Positions 19,709 through 26,072 of a stretch of 64,000 nucleotides of DNA are shown here, one piece after another. Numbering within the stretch: position 1 is the first letter of the stretch; the number at the start of each line of letters is the position of its first letter. A program made the translations under genes and the position numbers. The stretch is from the NCBI RefSeq assembly GCF_002217475.1, contig NZ_MUHH01000042.1, positions 1 to 64,000 of the forward strand, in the 5' to 3' direction. The notes beneath the pieces were generated by a model. It did not search any database, had not been told where the DNA came from, and saw nothing but the letters and a program-made list of their open reading frames with translations. This stretch comes from Flavobacterium tructae (GTDB taxonomy: Bacteria > Bacteroidota > Bacteroidia > Flavobacteriales > Flavobacteriaceae).

Positions 19709-20770
19709 ATGGAGCATTTTATAGGTTATATAAAACACTACGCCATCCCATTATTTGTATTTACAAGTTTAGCTTTAGCACTTGCATTAATACTCAAAAG
19801 AATTCATTATCAATACACTCTTCCTTACCGGCATCATATTGTTAGAAAATCTGAAATTTTCCTTACAGAGATTACACTCTCAAAACCGGAGGAAAGCATT
19901 CTGAAATACAAAATCGCCAAATTCAGATCCGAAATTCCAATCCATAAAACCTGGTGTAAAGAAATGCTTATCGACGATATGATTCGGATGAAAAGCAATT
20001 TAAAAGGTAAAACCGCCAAGAACATTCTTATTATATACAAACAACTGGGTTTAAACCATTATTCGGCAAGTTTACTTCGGGATTTTAGAAAATATAAAAA
20101 ATGTGATGGCATTTATCATTTTCAAGCCTTGGGATACAAACCGGGAATTGCTCAAATCCAAAAATATTTGTTCCATCCCAATAAAGTTATCCGGTCAAAC
20201 GCCAATATTGCTTATCTGATTTTAACCAAAGGAGACTGGCAGGCCGTTAATAAGATTCCGGTAAAAGTATCCATCAGTACTACCATAAAAATAATGGATG
20301 TGTTGCATTCGCAAAACATACCGATTCCACCTGATATCGAGCTCTGGATAGAATCTGATAATCCTACCATTCTGAAATTAGCCGTAATGACTATGGTATT
20401 TTACAATTACAGGAACAGATCACAGGATATTATCAAATTGCTCACCCACGAAAATAAAAACCTTAGAACCGATGTAATTATTGCCATTCGCGACTTGTAC
20501 CTGTATGAAGCCGAAGAGGATTTATTACTGCAATTTAAGCAGGAGAGTATCGAACTTCAATTGGAAATTCTGGATGCCCTCGCCATTATAGGCTCAGAAA
20601 AAACAATTTCATTTTTAAACCACCAAATTCCGAACGAAGAAATCAAAGATCTTAAATTAAAAATGGTAGCCACTTTAAACGATCTCGATTCTGTACGTAT
20701 AGATGTATTGGGAAGACAGGATTCCGATACCCAAAAAATGATTAATCACATTAGAGAATTACAACTATGA
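19709..20770 (+). CDS. Membrane-anchored HEAT-repeat protein (first gene of glycan cluster)
   Basis: 353 residues. One N-terminal membrane helix (about 11-30) is followed by a long alpha-helical region with HEAT-like pairs such as DNPTILKLAVMTMVFYNY, ENKNLRTDVIIAIRDLYLYE and LLQFKQESIELQLEILDALA. The bulk would face the cytoplasm if the basic loop after the helix stays inside. It overlaps the downstream glycosyltransferase by 4 bases (ATGA), indicating translational coupling. A scaffold or regulatory subunit for the synthase is likely from context; sequence alone gives only the fold. Confidence 0.8.
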   Translation: MEHFIGYIKHYAIPLFVFTSLALALALILKRIHYQYTLPYRHHIVRKSEIFLTEITLSKPEESILKYKIAKFRSEIPIHKTWCKEMLIDDMIRMKSNLKGKTAKNILIIYKQLGLNHYSASLLRDFRKYKKCDGIYHFQALGYKPGIAQIQKYLFHPNKVIRSNANIAYLILTKGDWQAVNKIPVKVSISTTIKIMDVLHSQNIPIPPDIELWIESDNPTILKLAVMTMVFYNYRNRSQDIIKLLTHENKNLRTDVIIAIRDLYLYEAEEDLLLQFKQESIELQLEILDALAIIGSEKTISFLNHQIPNEEIKDLKLKMVATLNDLDSVRIDVLGRQDSDTQKMINHIRELQL

Positions 20771-22203
20771 CGACTGATTTTCTACATTATATTATTCACT
20801 GTTACAATGTCTTTGTAATCCATTTTTCAATCGGATATATTCTGTTCTACATCTTTCTGTCTGTTCTTTCGTATTGGGCGATTGTAAAACATTTAAAATA
20901 TCAAAAATACCTGGAAGAAGAGGTTTTAATTCGTTCGAACCATATACTGGGCGTTTCCATTGTGGCTCCTGCTTTTAACGAGGGAGTAAATATCGTTTAC
21001 AATGTTAAATCCCTGCTCTCTCTGACCTATCCGAAATACGAAATCATTATTGTCAATGACGGAAGTTCTGACGATACGCTGGAAAAACTAATTGCCGAAT
21101 TTGATCTGGTTAAAATTGACTTTTATTATCAGGAGAAAATTGTCACACAGCCCGTTCGCGGACATTATAAATCAAAGAATCCCGTTTACTCCAAATTACT
21201 GATTGTCGACAAAATAAATGGAAAAAGTAAAGCTGATGCCGCAAATGCCGGGATAAACTCTTCGCAATATCCCCTGTTTTTATGCACTGATGTAGATTGT
21301 ATTTTAAAAAGAGATACTATTTTGAAACTGGCCAAACCGTTTATGGAAAATGAAACTCGTGTCATTGCCTGCGGAGCCGGAATCAGGATTTCAAACTCCT
21401 GCGATATCAAGGAAGGCTTTTTGTTTAAAGTTCATTATCCTAAAGAATGGTATCCGCGTTTTCAGGAATTAGAATACGTACGCTCTTTTTTATTTGGAAG
21501 AATGGCGTGGAGTCAGCTAAACGGTCTGCTTTTGGTTTCCGGAGGTCTCGGTATGTTTGATAAAGACATTGTGATTAAAGCAGGTGGATACTGGCATCAG
21601 TCCTTAGGCGAAGATATGGAACTGGTGACGCGCATGCGAAAATACATGCACGATACTAAAGAAAAATACTTAATCAAATACATTCCGGAATCGCTTTGCT
21701 GGACAGAAGTCCCGAGTACGCGAAAAATATTCTTAAGACAGCGCATTCGATGGGCTCGTGGACTGGTTCAAACCTTATATTTACATCGGAAAATGTTTTT
21801 AAATCCAAAATACGGACGAACAGCATTTCTGGTATTACCTTTCTTTTTCAGTTTTGAGTTTTTAGTTCCTATTATTGAATTTATTGGTATTCTGACTCTC
21901 ATTTTCAGTTTTATATTTGGAATGATCGACTACCAACATTTACTGATTATAAGCCTATTAGTCTATCTATTCTATCTCTCCATAACCATAATATCCATAT
22001 TGATAGATGAAATACTGTATAAAAGTTATGCCAATTATAAAGAATTAATGATTCTTATCGGGATGGCCGCACTTGAGCCTTTTGCGTACCATCCGATAAC
22101 GATTTATGCCTCACTGAAAGGCTATTGGCTCTTCTTTCGAAGAAAAGAACAAAACTGGGGCGTAATGGTCCGTAAAGGATATGAAGGTCCAACTAAAAAA
22201 TAA
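20767..22203 (+). CDS. Processive membrane glycosyltransferase, family 2 (PgaC/YaiP-like)
   Basis: A 478-residue synthase with an N-terminal membrane segment (about 18-40), a GT-A domain and three or more C-terminal helices (from about 345). Catalytic landmarks are Asp98 in IIIVNDGSSDD, the D-x-D at Asp175-Val-Asp177, GED at 281-283 as catalytic base region, and QRIRW at 325-329, the Q/RxxRW signature of processive enzymes such as cellulose, hyaluronan and PNAG synthases. It therefore probably polymerises a UDP-sugar while extruding the chain across the inner membrane. There is no PilZ domain. The sugar is unknown. Confidence 0.88.
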   Translation: MTTDFLHYIIHCYNVFVIHFSIGYILFYIFLSVLSYWAIVKHLKYQKYLEEEVLIRSNHILGVSIVAPAFNEGVNIVYNVKSLLSLTYPKYEIIIVNDGSSDDTLEKLIAEFDLVKIDFYYQEKIVTQPVRGHYKSKNPVYSKLLIVDKINGKSKADAANAGINSSQYPLFLCTDVDCILKRDTILKLAKPFMENETRVIACGAGIRISNSCDIKEGFLFKVHYPKEWYPRFQELEYVRSFLFGRMAWSQLNGLLLVSGGLGMFDKDIVIKAGGYWHQSLGEDMELVTRMRKYMHDTKEKYLIKYIPESLCWTEVPSTRKIFLRQRIRWARGLVQTLYLHRKMFLNPKYGRTAFLVLPFFFSFEFLVPIIEFIGILTLIFSFIFGMIDYQHLLIISLLVYLFYLSITIISILIDEILYKSYANYKELMILIGMAALEPFAYHPITIYASLKGYWLFFRRKEQNWGVMVRKGYEGPTKK

Positions 22204-22210
22204 GCTGATT

Positions 22211-23476
22211 ATGAAACATAACAGAACTATAGCTCTAATAAGACTGCTTTTTTGTTTATTTCTAGTGACTTGCCAAACCACAAAAGGTCAAAAGAAAATA
22301 GACACTGACAGCCTTTTGACTGTTGTGCTCCACGACATGAGAAATACCCGTCCGGACTACAAATCAAATATCCAAAGAGCTCAGTTAGGAAAAAAACTGG
22401 CTCCGGATTACCTGGATTTCTATCTGGTATTGGGGCGAAATTATGACCTGACAAAGACAAAAGACAGTGCCCGATTTTACTATAATTATGTAATTGATAA
22501 AAATCCGGCTTATGAGGATGCCTATCTCTATCTGATCAACATGGATTTAGAGGCAAAAAATTACGAAGAAGCTCTCGTCTTAACCAATAAAGCAATTGAA
22601 CAGTTTCCTGACAACAAAACTTTCAGACTGAAAAGAATTGCGATTTATTCTCTGCAGAATGACACTAAAAATGAAGAAAAATACCTCCAATCGATAAGAA
22701 CAAAATATCCTAATGATGCCGACATCGAACAGCATCTTTTTGCCTTGTACTCCAGAACTAATATGGATCGGGCGGGCGTTTACTACAACTTCACCACAAT
22801 TGATCGTGACGGAGTTGGCCCGTGGCATCTGACAAGTGCCGATTATACACATCAACGTACGTGGGGAAGTTTAATTGGAAGAGTCAGCTATGCCGAAAGA
22901 CGATCTTCCAATCAGGTCATGGCCAGCGGACTTCAATTTGAAGTCGAATCTTACCTGTCGGGAAAGAAAAACAACTATTCCTACATTGATGTCGCCTACA
23001 GCAATGATATCGCTTTTCCTGAATGGAGATTAGGATATTCCTATTTCTACAATTTCGCCAAAGGCTGGGAGGCAGATTTAGGCTTCCGCTACATCGAAAT
23101 GCAGGACAACAGCAATTTAAAAACTTTAAATGTAGGATTAGGAAAATACTTCGGGGCATACTGGGTCAATTTAAGATCTTACATTCAAAAAGACGCACCG
23201 TCCTTTACCCTTACCTCCCGCTACTATTACGGCACTAAGTTTGATTATCTTACCCTAATTGCTGGTTATGGGACTTCGCCGGACGATCAGACGAGAGCAG
23301 CGGAATATGAAAACAGAGCTTCTTTAAGTTCGTACAGACTGAGTGCCGGCTTTTACAAGTTAATCAAAACCCATTATATTTTTGGAATATTAATCACCAA
23401 CAATCAACAGGAATATACCCCCAAAAAGTTTCAAAACGAACTTGATTTCGCTTTTTTACTGCAATATAAATTTTAA
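22211..23476 (+). CDS. TPR plus outer-membrane beta-barrel protein (YaiO-like)
   Basis: 421 residues from ATG 22211, eight bases after the glycosyltransferase stop; an in-frame ATG at 22181 lies inside that gene and is less likely. The N-terminus is a signal sequence (LLFCLFLVTCQ, possibly a lipobox). Residues ~45-165 are TPR-like helices (DSARFYYNYVIDKNPAYEDA, EALVLTNKAIEQFPDNKT). The remainder is amphipathic beta-strand ending in FAFLLQYKF, an outer-membrane barrel. This TPR-plus-barrel design matches YaiO and, functionally, the exporters PgaA, BcsC and AlgK/AlgE. In E. coli yaiO also neighbours a GT2 gene, yaiP. Confidence 0.82.
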   Translation: MKHNRTIALIRLLFCLFLVTCQTTKGQKKIDTDSLLTVVLHDMRNTRPDYKSNIQRAQLGKKLAPDYLDFYLVLGRNYDLTKTKDSARFYYNYVIDKNPAYEDAYLYLINMDLEAKNYEEALVLTNKAIEQFPDNKTFRLKRIAIYSLQNDTKNEEKYLQSIRTKYPNDADIEQHLFALYSRTNMDRAGVYYNFTTIDRDGVGPWHLTSADYTHQRTWGSLIGRVSYAERRSSNQVMASGLQFEVESYLSGKKNNYSYIDVAYSNDIAFPEWRLGYSYFYNFAKGWEADLGFRYIEMQDNSNLKTLNVGLGKYFGAYWVNLRSYIQKDAPSFTLTSRYYYGTKFDYLTLIAGYGTSPDDQTRAAEYENRASLSSYRLSAGFYKLIKTHYIFGILITNNQQEYTPKKFQNELDFAFLLQYKF

Positions 23477-23481
23477 ATCGT

Positions 23482-25695
23482 ATGAAAAAAAAGCGCCTTC
23501 ACTATTTGCAAATACTTATTCTCACCCTGCTTAGTTTTAAGATGATGGCACAATCTGAAATTACAATAACCGATAAAACCAAAATTATTGCTACGTCCGA
23601 AAGTACTCAGGCTGCGGCAAGAATACTAAAATTATATCTGGAGAAATCCGTGTCGAAACCATTTGAAATTACTACAAAAAGTCAAAAAGAGAGTGACGCT
23701 TCCGAAATCCTACTGGAAATTTCCAATGATAAAAAACTCAAAGCAAATGAATTCAGTATCAAAAGCGATTCAAAATCAATTTATATCACGGCTCCAAATC
23801 AGAAATACCTGCGTTATGCCGTTTATACTTTACTCGAAATCTGGGAATTTAGAAAATTTACCGCAACAGAAACTTACATTCCAAAAGTAACTCAGTTTAC
23901 TTTTTCTAAAAACACAAGTAAAACCTATCAGCCCTCTTTTGATTACAGAGCTTTGTTTTACCCTGATTGTTATGACGAAGATTTCAGAGACTGGCACAAA
24001 CTCGATTGGCATATTGACGATTTTGGCCTTTGGGGACATTCTTTTAGCATGCTTGTTCCGCCAAAAGAATATTTTAAAAGTAATCCTAAACTTTTTGCTT
24101 TGTACGAAGGGGAACGAAATACAGAATCTTTGTGTATGACCAATGACACCGTTGTGAGTCTGGTAGAGGAAAAAATGACTGAAATTATAGCAAAAACACC
24201 CCATGCGCAATTCTATTCGGTAAGCCAGAATGATGACGTCGTGTATTGCGAATGTACACAATGCAAAGCCATGAACACTAAATATGGCGGTCCGCAAGGT
24301 TCATTTTATTATTTTTTAAATAAAATTGCGGCTCGTTTTCCTAAAACCAAAATTACTACCCTTGCCTATCTTCACACCTTCAAACCGCCTGTAAATCTGA
24401 AAATAGCTCCAAACGTTTATACGATCTTATGCCCGATTGAACTGGATCGCGGCAAACCTACTACCAATCAGAATAATCCGTCCTTTGTCAAAAACCTTGA
24501 AAACTGGAGCACGACTTCACCACAGCTCTTTTTATGGGATTACACCGTTCAATTTTCTAATTTCATGTCCCCCTTTCCTAATTTTGAATCTTTTCAAAGT
24601 AACTATAAACTTTTTCAAAAAAACAAAGTGAAAGGACTATTTGTACAGGGATATGCTGATGTTCCGGGCGATCTTTCGGAATTACGACAATATCTGCTGG
24701 CAAAATTAATGTGGAATACTGATATTGACATTAAAGCTGTTACTGCTGATTTCCTCAGAGGTTTTTATGGAAAAGCAGCACCCTTTGTCGCAAAATACCT
24801 TGACCTTATAGAAGCCAATCAAAACAAAAGTAGAGCTTATTTAGATATTTATTCCGGTCCTGTTCAGGCGCGAAATACGTTCCTGACTCCTGAAGCTATG
24901 GATCAATACGATCATTATCTGGAACAGGCCAATAATGCTGTCGAAAATGATTCTATTTTAAGCGCACGTGTTCATAAATTACGACTGGCTTTAGAATTTG
25001 TTTATTTTGAACAGGCCAAATTTTATGGAAAAAACCAACACGGTATGTATGTCGTAAATACCAAAGGTGAAAAAGAAGTAAAACCGGGTTTAACAGAACG
25101 AGTTTTAAAATTCTCGCAATCCTGCAATCAATTTGGAGTTTATGAACTGAGCGAAGACGGAATTTCTCCTGATAATTATTATAAAGAATGGCTTGAAATT
25201 TGCAAAAACACCACATCACATTTAGGTGAGGATCTGAAAGTTACCTTTATAACGCCTCCGTCTGATGAGTTTAAAGGCAAAGGAAGTTATGGTTCAGTGG
25301 ATGGAAACAGGGGGTACAAAAACTTCAATATCAACTGGATTGGATGGTATGATACAAATCCGGAAATTGAAGTCGAAACCAAAAATCTTGATTTCAACAT
25401 CTTAAAATTAAATTTCCTAAGCGATCAGAGACATTGGATTTTTACACCAAAAAATATAAAAATCTATGGTTTTAAGAATCAGAAATGGGAGCTTATTAAA
25501 GAACAAATTTGCAACATTTTAACAGAAGACTACGAAATTACAACACAATCATGGGAAGTCGAAAATCAAATATTCAGTAGTTTTACCAAGATCAAAATCG
25601 TAGTAGAAAACCGGAAGGAATTGCCCGTCTGGAGAAAGCGAAAAAACAAAAAAGCAATGATAATGCTGGACGAAATAGAGTTGTATAAAAAATAA
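23482..25695 (+). CDS. DUF4838 periplasmic protein, glycosidase-like
   Basis: 737 residues. Signal peptide 1-23 (KMMAQ), an alpha-glucuronidase/GH20-like N-terminal alpha/beta domain (about 28-140; NQKYLRYAVYTLLEI), the DUF4838 domain (about 150-450) with SVSQNDDVVYCECTQC (cysteines 256, 258, 261), and a C-terminal beta domain (about 590-737; DQRHWIFTPKNIKIYG, MIMLDEIELYKK) resembling an F5/8 type C carbohydrate-binding module. The layout suggests a secreted or periplasmic glycoside hydrolase or carbohydrate-binding enzyme. By analogy with PgaB or BcsZ it could trim or modify the exported polymer (inference). It starts 5 bases after the previous stop. Confidence 0.82.
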   Translation: MKKKRLHYLQILILTLLSFKMMAQSEITITDKTKIIATSESTQAAARILKLYLEKSVSKPFEITTKSQKESDASEILLEISNDKKLKANEFSIKSDSKSIYITAPNQKYLRYAVYTLLEIWEFRKFTATETYIPKVTQFTFSKNTSKTYQPSFDYRALFYPDCYDEDFRDWHKLDWHIDDFGLWGHSFSMLVPPKEYFKSNPKLFALYEGERNTESLCMTNDTVVSLVEEKMTEIIAKTPHAQFYSVSQNDDVVYCECTQCKAMNTKYGGPQGSFYYFLNKIAARFPKTKITTLAYLHTFKPPVNLKIAPNVYTILCPIELDRGKPTTNQNNPSFVKNLENWSTTSPQLFLWDYTVQFSNFMSPFPNFESFQSNYKLFQKNKVKGLFVQGYADVPGDLSELRQYLLAKLMWNTDIDIKAVTADFLRGFYGKAAPFVAKYLDLIEANQNKSRAYLDIYSGPVQARNTFLTPEAMDQYDHYLEQANNAVENDSILSARVHKLRLALEFVYFEQAKFYGKNQHGMYVVNTKGEKEVKPGLTERVLKFSQSCNQFGVYELSEDGISPDNYYKEWLEICKNTTSHLGEDLKVTFITPPSDEFKGKGSYGSVDGNRGYKNFNINWIGWYDTNPEIEVETKNLDFNILKLNFLSDQRHWIFTPKNIKIYGFKNQKWELIKEQICNILTEDYEITTQSWEVENQIFSSFTKIKIVVENRKELPVWRKRKNKKAMIMLDEIELYKK

Positions 25696-25703
25696 TAGTC
25701 AAA

Positions 25704-26072
25704 ATGGATACTACCGATAAAAAAATTATGATCATCGATAATGATGATATGACTGTTGAGATTCTAAAATTCATTCTGAAAAAAGAAGGCTTCAAAGTAA
25801 GTATTGCGAAAGATGGTATCAATGCCATGGAGCGGCTTCCGGTTATTATGCCGGACTTGGTGATTACCACGATTACCGTACCTCTTAAATCCGGTCTGGA
25901 AATCATCAATGAAATCAAGCAAAATTACAAGGATATTCGTGTTATTGCACTTTCTTCACTAGGGGAAGAAGAAAACACTGTTGAAGAAGCTTTTGAATTG
26001 GGTGTAGACGATTTTATTGCTAAACCATTTAATCCAAATGAACTTTTACTGCGAATAAAACGATTTTTATAG
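25704..26072 (+). CDS. Stand-alone receiver domain lacking the phospho-aspartate
   Basis: A 122-residue CheY-like domain: acidic pocket Asp12/Asp14/Asp15 (MIIDNDDMT), the switch Ser84 (IALSS) and Lys107 (FIAKPFNP) are all present. The phosphoacceptor strand reads PDLVITTITVP, where a normal receiver has Asp at the second Thr (Thr56). It therefore probably cannot be phosphorylated in the usual way and may act as a constitutive interaction module. No output domain is present. It is the last gene of the five-gene cluster, 8 bases after the DUF4838 gene, so it is likely a regulator or adaptor of the synthase. Confidence 0.88.
   Translation: MDTTDKKIMIIDNDDMTVEILKFILKKEGFKVSIAKDGINAMERLPVIMPDLVITTITVPLKSGLEIINEIKQNYKDIRVIALSSLGEEENTVEEAFELGVDDFIAKPFNPNELLLRIKRFL

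Follow-up and report, generated by a model that had tools for sequence, protein, structure and literature searches.

Synthase-dependent polysaccharide secretion systems are defined by a synthase, a c-di-GMP (cyclic diguanylate)-binding regulatory domain or co-polymerase, periplasmic modification enzymes, and a periplasmic tetratricopeptide repeat (TPR) region coupled to an outer-membrane pore (PMC7112194). The same 2020 survey lists five synthase-dependent polymers and includes c-di-GMP control in the definition. Proteins that combine TPRs with a barrel are the exporter type of these systems (PMC9384988). Here, we analyze a five-gene cluster at positions 19709–26072 of a 64,000-nucleotide stretch of Flavobacterium tructae DNA (contig NZ_MUHH01000042.1; hereafter the window).

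By sequence and predicted fold, the cluster contains three of the four defining parts, the c-di-GMP part being the one that is absent. We propose that the cluster is probably a synthase-dependent exopolysaccharide secretion operon, which would make and export a polymer. It is apparently an undescribed, conserved variant of synthase-dependent secretion, and on present evidence works like such a system. An earlier note on this DNA had described the cluster as a part-for-part mirror of synthase, TPR-exporter and periplasmic hydrolase with no named counterpart; the mirror holds for the three parts, and the gene set is undescribed in the open-licence literature searched. The five genes are:

19709..20770, + strand: HEAT-repeat protein, 353 amino acids; HEAT_2 match weak here, strong in homologues in the same position
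20767..22203, + strand: predicted processive family 2 glycosyltransferase (GT2) polysaccharide synthase, 478 amino acids; Pfam Glycos_transf_2 and motifs
22211..23476 (alternative start 22181), + strand: TPR and YaiO outer-membrane barrel protein, 421 amino acids; PF19413 and TPR
23482..25695, + strand: DUF4838 glycosidase-like protein, 737 amino acids; PF16126
25704..26072, + strand: stand-alone receiver domain, 122 amino acids; PF00072

All five open reading frames lie where they had been reported, with the packing then described (4-base overlap or gaps of 5–8 bases): the HEAT and GT2 frames share 4 bases, and gaps of 5 and 8 bases separate barrel from DUF4838 and DUF4838 from receiver. The barrel frame may begin at ATG 22181, overlapping the GT2 gene by 23 bases, or at ATG 22211, leaving a 7-base gap; judged from relatives, the latter is more likely. 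Purifying selection acts on all five genes (median dN/dS, the nonsynonymous to synonymous rate ratio, of 0.04–0.12), which indicates that the cluster is real and maintained.

Comparison with known systems

Judged by sequence, the cluster falls outside the Pga, Bcs and Nfr families. It resembles Escherichia coli pgaABCD, which makes poly-N-acetylglucosamine (PNAG), in its processive GT2, periplasmic hydrolase domain, and exporter of TPRs plus an outer-membrane barrel. Unlike pgaABCD, it lacks the PgaB deacetylase and PgaD, its YaiO-type barrel has 14 rather than 16 strands, and its genome is without c-di-GMP proteins. The nearest NCBIfam model for the GT2 is PgaC_IcaA, which it matches at 113 bits, far below the cut-off of 422; on this score, and with DUF4838 in the place of PgaB, PNAG membership was rejected. 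The Bcs system shares a QRxRW synthase and a periplasmic hydrolase with the cluster, and Foldseek ranks BcsC first for the barrel protein; unlike Bcs, the cluster contains no PilZ, BcsB or BcsZ (a glycoside hydrolase of family 8, GH8), and its barrel protein is only about 10% identical to BcsC. Membership in the cellulose systems was rejected on curated cut-offs and the missing partners.

Two further E. coli loci are similar in part. NfrBA, which makes the NGR glycan that serves as phage N4 receptor (PMC8669469), likewise pairs a GT2 synthase with an outer-membrane partner and controls the synthase locally, but the window GT2 has no MshEN match in Pfam and is accompanied by a HEAT protein and a receiver instead. 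The yaiO-yaiX-yaiP-yaiS locus places a GT2 and a YaiO-family barrel beside modifying enzymes; it lacks HEAT, TPR, receiver and DUF4838 genes, and YaiP scores 42 bits with the GT2 profile. No function for that locus was found in the literature searched, where titles on YaiO mostly concern E. coli detection; YaiO is not mentioned in the lipocone or structural-colour papers. Neither FpgA of F. psychrophilum nor Pep25/Lbp26 of F. collinsii, both considered as possible characterised members, matches this composition by published description.

The predicted GT2 synthase and its proposed HEAT-repeat partner

The window GT2 (Glycos_transf_2, 1.6e-17) has hydrophobic transmembrane regions at both ends, at about residues 9–43 and 365–411. 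Its NDGS, DxD, ED and QRxRW motifs are intact and are invariant in 33 homologues of 39–100% identity, as in processive synthases, so that by its motifs the protein qualifies as the synthase of the published definition (PMC7112194) and agrees with the earlier assignment from a Q/RxxRW motif.

The upstream HEAT protein matches HEAT_2 at 2e-4, below the curated Pfam cut-off, which same-position homologues exceed. A single N-terminal transmembrane helix at about residues 11–29 precedes the HEAT domain; such a helix is present in 148 of 152 HEAT homologues, and in 136 of these 148 the net charge is higher after the helix. This charge balance places the HEAT domain, by prediction, in the cytoplasm. 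The HEAT gene lies immediately upstream of the GT2 gene in 160 of the 191 GT2 genes examined, and 56 times the gap between the two is exactly −4. Of the exceptions to this adjacency, 20 are the second gene of a GT2 tandem. Because the loci were selected through the GT2 and some are near-copies, these counts describe the GT2 family and not independent events. We propose from this pairing that the HEAT protein may be a regulator or scaffold of the synthase.

The pair varies in some lineages. HEAT genes of one branch (L053, L056, L060, L061) encode proteins of 860–985 amino acids, 2–3 times longer, and in L053, the one read of that branch, the middle part is long, acidic and of low complexity. 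Chitinophagaceae and relatives (L138–L165) carry a tandem GT2 pair followed by a TPR-YaiO protein of 950–1000 residues and DUF4838. A second GT2 cluster in the genome of F. tructae itself (L032 8979–10409; G000:C36:43000–44400) consists, in this order, of a kinase-type gene, receiver, TPR/YaiO, HEAT and GT2, without DUF4838.

The receiver and the proposed control input

The last gene encodes a clear receiver domain (Response_reg PF00072, 2e-23) in which the phospho-acceptor Asp is replaced by Thr56, with the active-site Lys and Ser retained; by the acceptor criterion, its sequence is not that of a canonical receiver. Across the loci, 95 of 97 upstream receivers have Asp at the acceptor position, as do 42 of 53 downstream ones. 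Thr is found in nine downstream receivers, all of them from close relatives of the window or the window itself, a distribution that marks the missing phospho-Asp as a recent loss in this clade. The Asp-less receiver has a dN/dS of about 0.07 within the clade, in a set that includes one Asp-bearing relative and in which dS is near saturation; such purifying selection suggests a retained function that does not need phosphorylation. The earlier wording, a receiver-like protein, is thus accounted for by Thr56, and a pseudo-receiver as part of the system is correct for the window's clade and not for the other loci.

Neither GGDEF nor PilZ proteins were found in the genome, and none of the five proteins has a PilZ or MshEN match in Pfam. 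The c-di-GMP switch of the known systems is therefore missing, and by sequence the HEAT protein and receiver stand in the position that the definition reserves for a c-di-GMP-binding regulatory domain or co-polymerase (PMC7112194). That these two replace PilZ or c-di-GMP subunits, as had been suggested, agrees with this genome; it may not extend to several deep relatives (L188, L189, L191, L192, L194), where a GGDEF protein lies beside HEAT-GT2. Among these GGDEF proteins, one has two receiver domains, one PAS/GAF/EAL and one CHASE3/GAF/PAS domains, and a histidine kinase adjoins some other clusters. The gene neighbourhoods suggest that the HEAT-GT2 pair is a stable core and the input module exchangeable.

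The TPR-YaiO barrel protein

By Pfam and NCBIfam profiles, the third protein belongs to the YaiO outer-membrane barrel family: it matches PF19413 at 7e-44 (150 bits against a curated cut-off of 23.9), together with TPR, and TIGR04390 at 100.8 bits against a cut-off of 32. The AlphaFold2 model (predicted local distance difference test, pLDDT, 91.4; predicted template modelling score 0.70) consists of a signal segment, about ten N-terminal helices corresponding to the TPRs, and a 14-strand barrel. Its top Foldseek match is BcsC (9b8a, E 2.6e-10), and the PgaA barrel 4y25 is among the matches; full-length template modelling scores are low, about 0.4. In the model, the protein thus has the TPR region coupled to an outer-membrane pore of the definition (PMC7112194), and we propose that it is the predicted exporter. 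A barrel unrelated to export, which the earlier note had named as the finding that would count against its reading, is not what the TPR/barrel layout and these matches point to.

The DUF4838 protein and its alternatives

The fourth protein matches PF16126 (3e-91) and Glyco_hydro_20b (1e-6) in Pfam. Its model (pLDDT 92.5) has a signal peptide, a GH20-type N-terminal domain, an alpha/beta-barrel domain and a C-terminal beta-sandwich. The best structural match is hexosaminidase BT0459 (Z 21.8), with a root-mean-square deviation of 11.3 over the whole chain, and the similarity is therefore claimed at the domain level only. GH115 and GH84 structures align at Z 15–18, the range over BT0459, GH115, GH84 and GH20 structures being Z 14–22; as modelled, the catalytic domain shares the GH20/84/115 fold. 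The DUF4838 profile has no match to PgaB. Invariant positions in 42 DUF4838 sequences are W184, H186, D251, C256-x-C258-x2-C261, D353 and E558. Signal sequence and modelled glycosidase fold identify the protein as the likely periplasmic modification enzyme of the definition (PMC7112194) and bear out its earlier description as periplasmic and glycosidase-like; we propose that it is a polymer-processing hydrolase.

The GT2 tree has a second large branch in which a protein of about 800 residues, with a membrane N-terminus, a PF00884 sulfatase-superfamily domain and TPRs, stands where DUF4838 would be; we read it as LtaS-like by layout. GT2 is fused to such an LtaS/sulfatase-type domain in eight loci, including same-genome duplicates (L077, L078, L099, L101, L113, L115, L116, L167; 1140–1270 residues), and these fusions tie this type of polymer-modifying enzyme to the synthase. 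Some loci have both DUF4838 and an LtaS/sulfatase-type enzyme, and Chitinophaga has a larger TPR part and tandem GT2. On the GT2 tree, where the placement of long-branch rows is unsure, DUF4838 and the LtaS-type enzyme both show strong clustering, with a minimum of 15 and 12 changes, respectively. Read from gene content, the periplasmic enzyme is modular: DUF4838, LtaS/sulfatase-type, or both.

Two local variations concern this gene. Loci of the long-TPR branch (L063, L169, L171–L174, L176, L179, L184) carry a gene for a small DUF1573-type protein after DUF4838. In L076 (G149:C34:217592–219784), nine stops make DUF4838 a pseudogene, but the frames of HEAT, GT2, YaiO and receiver are still open.

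Conservation across Bacteroidota

A GT2 search of 120 family members gave a match in 33 genomes, whose neighbourhoods repeat the order receiver–HEAT–GT2–(enzyme)–TPR/YaiO. Within the genus Flavobacterium, the GT2 is present in 67 of 150 species, and DUF4838 adjoins such a GT2 in 20 of 21 genus matches, the remaining one being on a short contig. A search of named genomes extends the cluster to Psychroflexus, Pedobacter, Chitinophaga, Polaribacter, Belliella, Litoribacter, Galbibacter and others, with DUF4838 beside the GT2 in most loci of Chitinophaga, Pedobacter, Psychroflexus and Polaribacter. Among 247 Bacteroidota genomes, YaiO occurs in 58 and the GT2 in 64, including 58 of the 58 YaiO genomes (Fisher p = 4e-50, uncorrected for shared ancestry), and 55 of 61 YaiO loci lie within 10 kb of a GT2 gene. 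That the neighbours might not travel together elsewhere, a doubt raised beforehand, is answered by the neighbourhood search, which finds them co-conserved across Bacteroidota. Metagenome-assembled contigs labelled Rhizobium and Beijerinckiaceae (L133, L145) also carry typical Bacteroidota clusters and are probably misbinned.

The cluster is flanked by a DUF2400 protein upstream and a DEAD-box helicase downstream (Pfam). By size and order, the flanking genes are seemingly identical in many related loci of the genus, which places the cluster at a fixed chromosomal site there. Sigma-70-like and terminator-like sites are not commoner than in shuffled sequence, and no Bacteroidota-type promoter pattern was found just upstream; the operon structure therefore rests on spacing and conservation. 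A PHROGs comparison gave no useful match.

Proposed mechanism and alternative explanations

In the mechanism that we propose, the GT2 would polymerise a nucleotide sugar and pass the chain across the inner membrane. Held in the membrane by its single helix, with the repeats in the cytoplasm, the HEAT protein would sit on the GT2 and take a signal from the receiver domain, so that synthesis would be gated without c-di-GMP. The DUF4838 enzyme would trim or edit the chain in the periplasm, where in sister lineages an LtaS/sulfatase-type enzyme would decorate it instead, and the TPR-YaiO protein would guide the chain and export it through the outer-membrane barrel. We infer this order of steps, and the gating by HEAT protein and receiver is deduced from gene order and the absence of c-di-GMP proteins. 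The GH20-like hydrolase and PgaC-like synthase hint weakly at an N-acetylhexosamine polymer.

Several observations weigh against this reading. No fusion of HEAT to GT2 or to a receiver was found when sought, and we infer contact of the HEAT protein and receiver with the synthase only from gene order. With 14 strands, the YaiO barrel falls short of the 16 found in the barrels of PgaA and BcsC, and a second structural aligner (VIA-align) puts 14-strand FadL/OmpG-type and CymA barrels first, with BcsC absent among its best 50 matches. Six GT2-bearing genomes have no detected YaiO gene. By sequence, DUF4838 appears to have no fully conserved GH20 Asp-Glu pair, as position 252, next to the invariant D251, may be D, G, N or S, and DUF4838 lies apart from the cluster in 12 of 20 phylum-level matches.

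We consider it unlikely that the cluster is a variant PNAG (Pga-type) or cellulose system that makes the same product with PgaB/PgaD or BcsB/PilZ swapped for local parts. Although no other model or E. coli protein comes closer to the GT2 than PgaC (113 bits; profile 118 bits), the hydrolase fold is of the hexosaminidase type, and the exporter has the TPR and barrel layout, the synthase score falls far short of the PgaC equivalog cut-off, the barrel is of the YaiO family, and the PgaB-like deacetylase, PgaD, BcsB, PilZ and MshEN partners are all absent from the cluster. LtaS/sulfatase-type enzymes (OpgB, LtaS) decorate periplasmic glucans and lipids. Their use in the sister branch, together with a barrel of 14 strands only whose nearest folds are small-solute channels, would fit a GT2 that makes an envelope-retained glycan, periplasmic or membrane-bound (osmoregulated glucan-like or glycolipid), with the YaiO protein as an envelope scaffold or small porin. 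We hold this to be improbable, since the GT2 co-occurs almost perfectly with a TPR-barrel protein, and proteins of that kind are the exporters of synthase systems (PMC9384988). Finally, the occurrence of DUF4838 elsewhere in Bacteroidota genomes would fit a locus for taking up or degrading polysaccharide, with DUF4838 acting on glycan from outside and the barrel serving as a porin; we regard this as very improbable, given that no SusC/SusD pair is present in the cluster, that the processive GT2 has its synthesis motifs intact, and that the receiver–HEAT–GT2 core occurs without DUF4838 in many genomes.

For the synthase-dependent secretion operon that we favour, a further step is conceivable, though we hold it with less than even confidence: that these loci form a Bacteroidota-wide class in which a membrane-anchored HEAT protein is the obligate synthase partner and, instead of c-di-GMP, a receiver (phosphorelay) signal passed on by this protein gates polymerisation, the gate having become phosphorylation-independent in the window's clade.

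Significance

Flavobacterium and many of its relatives have no c-di-GMP proteins, and how they control their surface polysaccharides is poorly known. The proposed operon offers a specific, testable answer on this control and gives a large phylum a candidate for a matrix or surface polymer. It also suggests possible functions for three poorly described families: the YaiO barrel, DUF4838 and the synthase-linked HEAT protein. The loci further provide a natural series of seemingly swapped control inputs, from GGDEF in the deep branches, through histidine kinase and receiver in Bacteroidia, to the Asp-less receiver of the window's clade.
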